Source: Polystyrenella longa (GTDB taxonomy: Bacteria > Planctomycetota > Planctomycetia > Planctomycetales > Planctomycetaceae). From it: a DNA stretch of 64,000 nucleotides. Numbering within the stretch: position 1 is the stretch's first letter; the number at the start of each line of letters is the position of its first letter. The notes under the pieces are model-generated. The model searched no databases. It saw nothing but the letters and a program-made list of their open reading frames with translations, and was not told the DNA's origin. Made by a program: the position numbers and the translations under genes. Location: NCBI RefSeq assembly GCF_007750395.1, contig NZ_CP036281.1, positions 1,513,001-1,577,000 on the forward strand, given 5' to 3'. Below are positions 4,754 to 53,517 of the stretch, in pieces.

Positions 4754-5143
4754 ATGATGAACTCTGTTTTATGGCATTGTTGTCTGACCGGCCTTCTATT
4801 GGGAGCATTGCCGGGATGTCAGACTGCCAGTCGTACGGTCCAGGTTGACCCAAACCCACGTTCTGTCCGTGCCGGTGTCGAATTAGCCGCCGCTTCTGAT
4901 AATTCAGATTCGAACACACTTCTAGCAGCTGTAGATTCCGGTGCAGAAGTCAATTCGGGTTCGAGCGATGTAAACGGTCCCCCCGCCGTCAAGCAGGCCC
5001 CTGTTTCTGAGGCCCCCACCCCCAGCGGAGGAGAATTGTGGTCTAGCTGGCCTAAAAACCCGCTATCTCAATTAATTCCGGCGACGATTCGCAGGTCCGA
5101 AGGGGCCGAGCCCAACAAAATTGCCGGCCGAGAAGCATTCTAG
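4754..5143 (+). CDS. Small lipoprotein of unknown function
   Basis: This 129-residue protein has a signal peptide ending LPGC, a lipobox with the lipidated Cys at about residue 22. The mature region is rich in Ala, Ser, Pro and Val and looks disordered, with no domain recognised. The C-terminal ~35 residues (LWSSWPKNPLSQLIPATIRR) may form an amphipathic stretch. ATG 4754 and the next codon ATG 4757 are both possible starts. The dispersed repeat at 5146-5234 begins directly after the TAG stop. The protein is probably anchored at a membrane; its role is unknown. Confidence 0.65.
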   Translation: MMNSVLWHCCLTGLLLGALPGCQTASRTVQVDPNPRSVRAGVELAAASDNSDSNTLLAAVDSGAEVNSGSSDVNGPPAVKQAPVSEAPTPSGGELWSSWPKNPLSQLIPATIRRSEGAEPNKIAGREAF

Positions 5144-5145
5144 AT

Positions 5146-5234
5146 AACCGTAGCGTGTTCTGGCGGCGTAGCCTGCTGTTTTTTAAGTGCTTTTCGGGAC
5201 CGATAGCAGCCACACTTATCCTGGATAGGATCTA
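5146..5234 (-). repeat. ~90-bp dispersed repeat, copy 1 (3' of lipoprotein gene)
   Basis: The reverse complement of this stretch matches 52057-52144 with about six substitutions and one single-base length difference. Shared blocks include CCAGGATAAGTGTGGC, CTATCGGTCCCGAAAAGC and GCAGGCTACGCCGCCAGAAC. It begins three bases after a stop codon. Near-palindromic arms TGGC(T/G)GC and GCCGCCA could pair; in this copy they carry one mismatch. No transposase-like frame or terminal repeat is apparent. Confidence 0.85.
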
Positions 5235-5814
5235 GGTCGATCAATTAGTCGAACTTCCCGCTTTAAATGCCGGTTATGCCGAATTTGCAATCTTTGTTAT
5301 CGATCGTAAACTATTTATGAGTAACAGTTTATGGCGAATTTGGTAAGGTCGCAGGTGCAGGGGAGCCGATGGGATCTATGATCCAAGATCCCAATTCTCT
5401 CTGTTTCGATTCCAGAGCGGTCGATTCCTCGTAGATCTCATCAATTCCGGTGTGTACTGCACTTTAGTTACCGTAATATAGTGTTCCTTTGTTTGTATTC
5501 TTAGGGCATTTAGCGAGTAGCCTATTTTTCAGGAAACCCGAGTTTCCAAACTAAACGAAGAAACGCTGAGGCTGGTTTCTCGGGGAGTGAGTCGATAAAA
5601 TCGGCCACTTCTCTGGATTCGATAAACTGGAATCTATCAGAGAGTTATCATTCTTTCTCCGTGGCCATTTGCCCGTCTTTGGTAAAGGGAACATTCCTTT
5701 TGCTTTCGGGTGTTTTGCCTGTTCTGTCATATACAATATGGGCAAAAGACAGGCTAGCTGTTCGCTTAGATCAGTCTACGGGTATTTCCAAACGATTTGA
5801 GAGGAGACTTTTCT
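5235..5814. other. Long leader/intergenic region upstream of hpf
   Basis: About 580 bases lie between the repeat and hpf with no convincing ORF. The sequence is locally AT-rich (5270-5340 and 5460-5530) and could hold the promoter of the hpf-PTS cluster. No riboswitch or known RNA was recognised. Confidence 0.4.
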
Positions 5815-51938: not shown

Positions 51939-51981
51939 CATTGGCCCAATTGATTCGTCCATTTAATAGCAGTCCAAATGA

Positions 51982-52015
51982 AAAGCCTCTCACTGACCAT
52001 TTCAGGGAGAGGCTT
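51982..52015 (+). terminator. Hairpin after the lactonase gene
   Basis: AAAGCCTCTC and GAGAGGCTTT form a perfect 10-bp stem. The T-run is short (GTTCATTT), so termination is likely but moderate. Confidence 0.7.
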
Positions 52016-52056
52016 TGTTCATTTATGACATTAATCAGTCAGTCTTTTCAACTGAT

Positions 52057-52144
52057 TAGATCCTGTCCAGGATAAGTGTGGCGGCTATCGGTCCCGAAAA
52101 GCCCTTAAATACAGCAGGCTACGCCGCCAGAACACGCTACGGTT
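52057..52144 (+). repeat. ~90-bp dispersed repeat, copy 2 (3' of the Trx-CAP gene)
   Basis: It matches the reverse complement of 5146-5234. On the minus strand it follows the Trx-CAP gene stop (52159) by 14 bases, the same orientation relative to its gene as copy 1. Arms TGGCGGC and GCCGCCA (52079-52129) pair perfectly. It sits between two convergent genes. Confidence 0.85.
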
Positions 52145-52158
52145 TTCTGGAATGCGCT

Positions 52159-53070
52159 CTAGTCGGCGAAGACGCCCGTGGCATACCAGGTACCATTCGA
52201 TCCCTGAACCATGTCATAGCCGTAGTAGCGGTGTTGTTTACGCATCGCGTTCCAGTGCCCGGCGGAACTGCGCCAGGTCCCGATGCAATCGTTGGCGATG
52301 TCGAGCAGAGTGTATCCATTACCACCTACGGCAACTTCCGTGGAGAGTCCACCGACGGTGCTGTTGATCTGATGAAAACGAGCCGTCCAGTTATGGTGAC
52401 CGACCTGGCTCAAACGGGCCATCGTCGAAGAGTTCACATTGGACATGTGCATCAGGTATTGGTGAGGAGTCGAGTTCACCGACTGGGGACGCTCCGGGTG
52501 CCGTTTGAGAGCATAAATGAGAGTCCGTTGAGTAATAGTTCCCTCTGGCAATGTTACCAAAGTATGGAGTTCATCGACGGAGCAATCGCGTCCATGGTTA
52601 AAGGGGAGCGCCGAGACCAGTTGACCGTACTGGGGTGATTTCTCATCCGACAAATCAAGAATGGCGATTCCGGCTTGCTTGTACATGTAGTTGAACGAAG
52701 CGTGCCAGAGTAAGGTCTGTTTTTCGCCCGGCACGGTGGCATCAAGCGGAAGAACAGCCCGGACGAAGTTCTCCAGATGCTCTTGTGTCTGAGGACTGGC
52801 TAGAACGCTTTCTTCGAATTCGGCTTGGGCAGTAGCGTCGTTGAGTTCGAAAGAAATCAGCAATTGCTGGTTTGTATCACGGGCCTCTTTGTAGGCGTCG
52901 CCGTAATCGGTGAACCAGTCGAGATCGCCAATTTGACGAAACTCGCTAGAGGGTTCAATCCGTTCCGCTTTCGTCGGAGATTCGACTGCAGCGGAGAGCA
53001 GGGAAGTCGACGCGATTAGCGCCACGGTTGACTGTAAGAGGAAGCAAAAGCAGAACTGGGGGCGAATCAT
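52159..53070 (-). CDS. Secreted thioredoxin-fold plus CAP/SCP-domain protein
   Basis: This 303-residue protein starts at ATG 53070, which has AAAGGATT 7 bases upstream and opens a clean signal peptide (MIRPQFCFCFLLQSTVALIA). An upstream ATG (53217) would add 49 residues of non-signal-like sequence and is rejected. Residues ~50-160 form a thioredoxin-like fold (YKEARDTNQQLLISFELNDA) without a CxxC active site. Residues ~200-303 match a CAP/SCP-PR1 domain: MARLSQVGHHNWTARF, then CIGTWRSSAGHWNAMRKQHR and GYDMVQGSNGTWYATGVFAD. The combination suggests a secreted or periplasmic binding role; function is unknown. Confidence 0.75.
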   Translation of the reverse strand: MIRPQFCFCFLLQSTVALIASTSLLSAAVESPTKAERIEPSSEFRQIGDLDWFTDYGDAYKEARDTNQQLLISFELNDATAQAEFEESVLASPQTQEHLENFVRAVLPLDATVPGEKQTLLWHASFNYMYKQAGIAILDLSDEKSPQYGQLVSALPFNHGRDCSVDELHTLVTLPEGTITQRTLIYALKRHPERPQSVNSTPHQYLMHMSNVNSSTMARLSQVGHHNWTARFHQINSTVGGLSTEVAVGGNGYTLLDIANDCIGTWRSSAGHWNAMRKQHRYYGYDMVQGSNGTWYATGVFAD

Positions 53071-53517
53071 CAGGAAATCCTTTAAATGCGTTGACCCGGA
53101 TTCTGTCCTATCAAGGTACGGTCCCTGATCGAATGGACTATTTTCCGAGTGGGGGGAAGCATGATTCCAGCGGTATCTGGCTGTCATCGAAACCATCAGG
53201 AAAAATTCGCGCCGCACAGAGTGCGTGGAACGATTCGGAGGATCGACGTTGGCTGGTCAGGAATCGAATGAGGCGACAGCATCCTTGCTGACTATAAATC
53301 GCTCTGCGGAGGGCGAGCGTGTCGACCAGTGGATGGCGACATCGGGTATGGGAAGCCGGAAAGCTTCCGCATAGAAAAGGGCGCCATTAGGACCTCTAAC
53401 CGAACCCAGCTAATCGGGAGGTGTATGGCGTGCAGCAGTTAAGAAGAGCCATCTTGCCCTTCACACTGCGCGCAGCACGAATCGTCTGCACGCAGTCACT
53501 GTAGATAACAGCAAACT
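53071..53517. other. Intergenic region upstream of the Trx-CAP gene
   Basis: These 450 bases between the Trx-CAP start and the small basic gene stop hold the hairpins GGAAGC/GCTTCC near 53351 and a long one at 53465-53496 (listed). No other ORF is convincing. Confidence 0.4.
53465..53496 (-). other. Strong hairpin 3' of the 35-residue basic gene
   Basis: ACTGCG-C-GCAG pairs with CTGC-A-CGCAGT, giving 10 bp with one internal mismatch and a 10-base loop, 22 bases after the stop codon. There is no U-run, so it may protect the mRNA 3' end. Confidence 0.45.

Follow-up and report, generated by a model that had tools for sequence, protein, structure and literature searches.

The window, the stretch of 64,000 nucleotides analysed here (bases 1,513,001-1,577,000 of the single-contig 6.13-Mb genome of a planctomycete, G000), contains two similar non-coding stretches, one of which directly follows a TAG. 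A preliminary description had noted that positions 5146-5234 resemble the reverse complement of 52057-52144 and had proposed a recent copy or a functional 3'-UTR module, which raises the question of what kind of repeat this is and why it lies at a stop codon. The similarity is real: the two stretches share about 90% identity in opposite orientation over nearly the whole element, and copy 1 aligns with copy 2 over 106 columns with 8 mismatches and 2 gaps. When the own genome was searched with 5120-5260, 40 of 59 candidates were scored as matches, and, apart from the self match (E 1.5e-68), the E-values ranged from 1.9e-38 to 5e-27, so that the similarity of the copies is far above chance. While the repeat itself stood, its boundaries had to be corrected to 5143-5234 on the plus strand for copy 1 and to 52057-52161 on the minus strand for copy 2, the only two copies within the window. 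Copy 1 extends from the G of a TAG (5143) to a TA at 5233-5234, its left end being shorter by about 12 bp and its right end reading GATC-TA (5229-5234). Copy 2 is complete and has a TA at both edges (52057-52058 on the right, 52160-52161 on the left).

In place of these two, the genome turned out to hold about 66 copies. The element is thus a repeat of about 105 bp with fixed ends that is short, carries no gene and is dispersed in many copies over 6.1 Mb. Searching with a sequence model derived from 30 of the copies (threshold E up to 1) gave 72 rows in G000, 34 in G001 and 32 in G002, three genomes of the same genus that each harbor a subfamily of their own. The G000 set comprises 66 elements in 67 rows (one element occupies two), the five weakest rows with E 0.0048 or worse being dropped; the G002 set comprises 30 elements, with two contig-end rows dropped and two elements retained that lack the right flank; and for G001 22 of the 34 rows were analysed. 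Among the 30 genomes searched with the window copy (the own genome and 29 relatives), matches occurred in these three only, and 27 of the 29 relatives gave no match at E 0.001. No element was detected in plasmids, phages or viral contigs, the latter searched by exact 19-mer. An exact 17-mer occurred in 44 stretches across genome contigs, 21 of them in the MAG Planctomyces sp. NAT128 (PABD01); the remaining 23, one per organism, were taken as chance. Within G001, the pairs L216/L217 and L218/L219 have bodies that are identical except for the flanking R and occupy different sites, which, as judged from their sequences, speaks for recent movement. Another pair, L103 and L112 (G000:C1:5771206 and 5557820), shares about 1.5 kb at 95% identity with a hydrolase-like gene and an element copy; it was considered as a transposon end but rejected, as it represents a segmental duplication carrying the hydrolase gene.

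The consensus has a length of 107 bases from CTAG to CTAG, with C-TA-GAGCGC... at the left edge and ...GGATC-TA-R at the right, and the end sequence is of the type TAGATCCTGTCCAGGATAA. The ends are imperfectly inverted, matching by eye in 14 of 20 columns with two gaps; common to both G000 ends is TAGA-C---TCCAG-ATAA, a likeness that by eye is weaker in G001. The left edge reads CTAG in 24 of the 30 best copies, CTAG or CTAA forms the right edge in 27 of them, and most have TA at both edges; in the flanks, a C before the left TA and an A or G after the right TA are accompanied by little further motif. The usual left end is C-TA-TAGCAAA in G002 and C-TA-TTACGTG in G001, and as the left ends of the subfamilies diverge after the TA, the element proper starts after the left TA.

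The target of insertion is C-TA-R. A nested copy at 5949599-5949794 interrupts one unit of a repeat array that adjoins a gene for a Y1 transposase (RAYT-like); the intact units read GCGAGCTAGCCGTGG (or ACGAG...), and the interrupted one reads GCTAGCTA[element]TAGCCGTGG. This single in-genome pair of an empty and a filled site (n=1) gives CTAG as the target, with TA on both sides after insertion. From the one empty site, the TA appears to be duplicated on insertion, but it may instead count as part of the element, in which case single-strand (IS200-like) insertion without duplication would yield the same sequence. The array also contains, within the interval of the nested copy, a second small repeat inserted in mid-copy (G000:C1:5949660-5949750, L118; about 85 bp by eye, ends TTTCAAAACCC / GGGTTTTGAAA), and at another locus, L114, the end sequence of this repeat adjoins the left end of an element copy.

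IS5 of E. coli prefers CTAG and also CTAA and TTAG as targets (PMC5493358), and the CTAG/CTAA preference of the element would fit a DDE element of the IS5 type, for which the target YTAR and a 4-bp duplication are known. However, 17 of the 30 best copies have unlike four-base edges at left and right, the base following the left CTA is specific to the element (the left end is TAG in 38/66 copies of G000 and CTAT in 20/30 copies of G002), and loci with PF01609 matches lack element ends. IS5 is a full transposon with a 4-bp duplication, whereas the edges of the element agree in CTA/TA only. An origin of the IS5 type is accordingly regarded as very unlikely.

We consider it quite probable that the element is a gene-less MITE of about 105 bp that is mobilized in trans by a DDE transposase with TA as its target, and we infer that this enzyme is most likely of the IS630/Tc1-mariner type. 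A transposase gene with matching ends was not detected in G000 in searches for PF13358, PF01609, PF01797 and the end pattern, the latter scanned at two mismatches among the matches listed, with loci spanning about 1.5 kb on each side. PF13358 gave 13 matches in G000, none above the cut-off and, by eye, mostly rve-like transposases or a fragment. At the 13 PF01609 (DDE_Tnp_1) and four PF01797 (Y1) loci, no element end was present at up to four substitutions, except for the nested copy. In G001 and G002, three IS630 matches exceeded the cut-off, two of which reach the end of a contig, and around these three genes no matching ends were in view. For four end-like matches outside known copies at up to one mismatch (537319, 4609222, 133228 and 1875734), the 10-11 kb examined contained no inverted counterpart at up to two mismatches (ORFs were listed for 537319 and 4609222), and 42 of the 43 end-pattern matches in G001 and G002 fell on rows of the model, the other being an element end after the orthologue of the L116 gene. 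The sole IS630-type trace noticed in G000 was a fragment resembling an IS630-type transposase (LPAYSPKLNPIENRW) at G000:C1:706010-706126 (L031), slightly below the PF13358 cut-off. In addition, numerous similar genes for transposases of about 359 aa, which by eye are rve-like, are clustered at G000:C1:5.48-5.77 Mb.

The Y1 gene next to the nested copy (G000:C1:5948570-5949169, L118) encodes a RAYT-like transposase of 199 aa with an HVHLL motif and lies between array copies (GTGCCACGG...CCGTGGCACC). The genome has four matches to Y1 transposase genes and one element copy adjoins one of them, as might be expected if the element were a repeat of the REP/REPIN type whose movement depends on a RAYT (Y1, HUH) transposase. 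The right end also forms a hairpin, ATCCTG-GA-CAGGAT, adjoining CTAR, in which 93% of the cells are paired across 33 sequences and one pair is C-G in 17 and U-A in 14 of the 33; and REP termini are known to provide flanking ORFs with TAG stops (PMC3733652). However, the left edge is CTAG in 32/66 copies and GTAG in just 3/66, one of these being misplaced by the nested insertion (L118). Instead of two REPs of 20-40 bp, the unit comprises about 105 bp in which one end forms a hairpin, and this hairpin is absent from the consensus fold across subfamilies. On both sides of the RAYT gene at 5948570-5949169 lies another repeat, which has itself received the element as an insertion, and at the three other Y1 loci no end of the element was present at up to five substitutions. 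We therefore regard a RAYT-moved repeat as unlikely.

With regard to placement, the TAG beside copy 1 proved to be a genuine clue: it is the stop codon (5141-5143, plus strand) of the gene at 4754-5143 on the plus strand, a putative lipoprotein of 129 aa, and lies at the edge of the element. The C-terminus of this protein is conserved in G001 and G002, which lack the element there and whose orthologues stop at the same codon (...GRDLF* and ...GRDAF* in the relatives, ...GREAF* in the window). Copy 2 similarly ends the minus-strand gene 52159-53217, whose TAG stop codon (52159-52161) consists of the target TA and the first base of the element, G; the orthologues in G001 and G002, both without the element, stop at the same terminal residue with a stop codon of their own.

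Including copy 2, 25 of the 66 copies in G000 occupy exactly this position, with an edge TA that also forms the first two bases of a called gene's stop codon. Copy 1 with its shortened left end is an additional case that was found through the relatives. The stops formed at the 25 copies are TAG in 24 and TAA in one (L127), and the gene lies on the left of the element in 13 and on the right in 12 (left-type and right-type, respectively). Gene calls were home-made, with codon usage taken from 26 long ORFs of the window. Stop codons account for 5.8% of the sampled CTAR sites outside coding sequence (41 sites), as compared to 25/66 copies (binomial p 1.3e-14); this background was drawn from 416 kb, mostly around copies, with some stretches overlapping and a few sites thus counted twice. 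Expressed as elements per sampled site, the value is 25/41 at the stop codon, 5/25 at 1-20 bp, 6/59 at 21-60 bp and 10/84 at 61-150 bp downstream, 7/158 beyond 150 bp, and 10/338 where no 3' end faces the site; in three more copies, a gene reads into the element or the copy is badly delimited. Stop codons thus differ from the sites 1-60 bp downstream (25 elements at 41 sites versus 11 at 84; p 8e-6), and 25 of the 36 elements in these two classes lie at a stop codon, as opposed to 33% of the sites. A frame test, which is independent of any site expectation, compared coding ORFs meeting an element edge in the stop frame with those in the other two frames and gave 25 versus 4 in G000, 15 versus 2 in G002 and 4 versus 2 in G001, the latter nonsignificant when taken alone (p 0.10). 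As an in-frame TA of CTAR is a stop codon by definition, the occupied stops must have pre-existed, given the CTAR target. A lone right end at G000:C1:4609222-4609240 (L199), outside these counts, is located at the TAG with which a minus-strand gene (...PASF*) terminates and is probably a decayed additional case. We also considered a 'lock-in' of old copies by the stop codon they provide, which was not supported: the share of stop-codon copies was 15/30 among those nearest to copy 1 (with copy 1 counted as non-stop) and 10/36 among the others (p 0.08), and since it is, if anything, higher in the nearest copies, slow retention of old copies is not favored.

Insertion might have truncated the genes concerned. 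To compare gene ends, 22 further ones were searched in both relatives, and 15 of them found a match, giving 22 comparisons of which 21 were resolved (L023 had no outcome); seven ends, L004, L012, L014, L016, L029, L101 and L113, had no match in either relative. The matched ends were 66-83% identical, and intergenic sequence could rarely be aligned. The number of codons to the stop was equal in 19 of the 21 resolved comparisons, the others being an internal one-residue indel by eye (L010) and a gene one codon longer (L098). Truncation was therefore rejected, as the orthologues end at the same codon. At L116, one of the 19, G002 has an element at the equivalent stop codon and G001 has one a few bases beyond it; at L021, the gene in G001 ends in an AAC-TAG stop of its own, and an element lies, by eye, about 11 bp away. 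At L020 (G000:C1:3789531-3789637), a long gene extends into the element for five codons up to an internal TAA, and here the insertion may have changed the protein end.

The end sequence of the element appears to matter for which side faces the gene. Pooled over the three genomes, copies with TAG at the left end were left-type in 14 and right-type in 8 cases, as opposed to 2 and 20 for copies with another left end (Fisher p 4e-4); the two left-type exceptions (L144 and L209 in G002) involve doubtful-looking ORFs but were retained in the counts. Such an effect is expected if an insertion at a stop codon can survive solely where the gene-facing end re-creates the stop, and it would partly also follow if TAG is conserved while in use. 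The three subfamilies with their unlike end sequences thereby form a natural experiment on surviving orientations.

The proposal of a 3'-UTR module, i.e., a terminator or mRNA stabiliser useful to the host and retained at gene ends, fared less well than that of a recent copy, which was essentially right as the element is a dispersed mobile repeat. In its favor, the copies peak at stop codons and shortly behind them, a GGCGGC/GCCGCC stem is paired in 97% of the cells across 33 sequences of the three subfamilies, and a terminator scan gave two overlapping terminator-like matches inside copy 1. However, 56 of the 66 copies are faced by the 3' end of a called gene, but this gene may lie to the left or to the right of the element, and the other 10 face no such end. 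In most comparisons, the orthologous genes in the relatives are kept without the element, L116 being the exception. The scan gave no terminator-like match in copy 2, where a terminator-like hairpin with a T-run, read by eye and absent from the pattern-scan list, lies 3' of and outside the element (51980-52019, minus strand) and has counterparts at the equivalent place in both relatives. On both strands, the folding of copy 1 does not surpass that of shuffles, nor does that of the consensus on the plus strand; the consensus minus strand folds better (z -2.5), an exception to the grounds on which a structured RNA or terminator was rejected. The consensus fold across subfamilies predicts the GGCGGC/GCCGCC stem only, a third stem, GTGT/ACAC, is broken more often (76.5% paired), and all pairing counts partly mirror subfamily descent. 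Rfam gave no match at the gathering score in the window, and two matches far below it (E 0.22 and 0.44) at three copy-bearing loci (L005, L138, L216). A host-useful module is thus quite improbable.

The most likely explanation is a selfish IS630-like MITE that is tolerated since the stop is rebuilt. The element would insert at C-TA-R and end up between two TAs; where the site is a stop codon, the gene would retain its TA and the element would contribute its first base, G, to complete TAG, so that the protein end would be unchanged and the old stop moved to the far side of the element. Usable stops would be TAA or TAG after C and, in the other orientation, TAG after C or T. The excess at stop codons would then reflect harmlessness, a preference for landing close to gene ends, or both, instead of a host function, and the absence of insertions within genes and their scarcity around gene starts would be due to survival. 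Harmlessness alone does not obviously explain the excess over neighboring 3' sites (25/41 versus 11/84), and insertion itself may prefer stop codons. In a further reading, which we hold to be possible but rather doubtful, either the transposase or some property of gene ends steers the element to stop codons, and in this lineage a left end that once read TAT has become TAG, which allows a stop to be restored from both sides; this direction of change is suggested by the older-looking sequences of the TAT copies. If so, every C-TAR or Y-TAG stop codon would be a safe landing site in either orientation, and a selfish element would have adapted to the punctuation of the genetic code. With a selfish MITE tolerated at rebuilt stops, the safe landing of a transposon, usually credited to dedicated targeting as in Tn7, which inserts at a harmless site beside glmS, would require only a short target and the first base of the element. 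For annotation, the stop codons of dozens of genes in the genus belong to a mobile element.

The supply of stop codons by a mobile repeat is not new. GTAG-tagged REPs, which have been reported in Planctomycetes, provide TAG stops for flanking ORFs near gene 3' ends (PMC3733652; Di Nocera et al., 2013), and the likeness of GTAG REPs and REPINs with their RAYTs to the element consists in termini that often give a TAG stop near the 3' ends of genes (PMC3733652). Such REPs are, however, palindromes of 20-40 bp that carry GTAG (or CGTC) at their foot, whereas the element measures about 105 bp, targets CTA-R and has TA on both sides and imperfect inverted ends. The literature searched, of which coverage was partial, contained no report of a TA-target MITE placed on stop codons; within it, a TA-target MITE family with a counted stop-codon excess, unchanged protein ends and an end-sequence effect seems to be new. 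Closest in kind is RUP, the repeat unit of pneumococcus, an IS630-Spn1-related MITE of 107 bp with about 110 copies (PMC3049150; PMC2229807). Stop-codon insertion is not mentioned for RUP in the accessible text of these two reports, and the two repeats differ in sequence and phylum and in that a partner IS has been proposed for RUP but was not found for the element. They are, according to the same reports, alike in length, TA target and a mostly intergenic location, and the inverted ends of RUP have an imperfect counterpart in the element.
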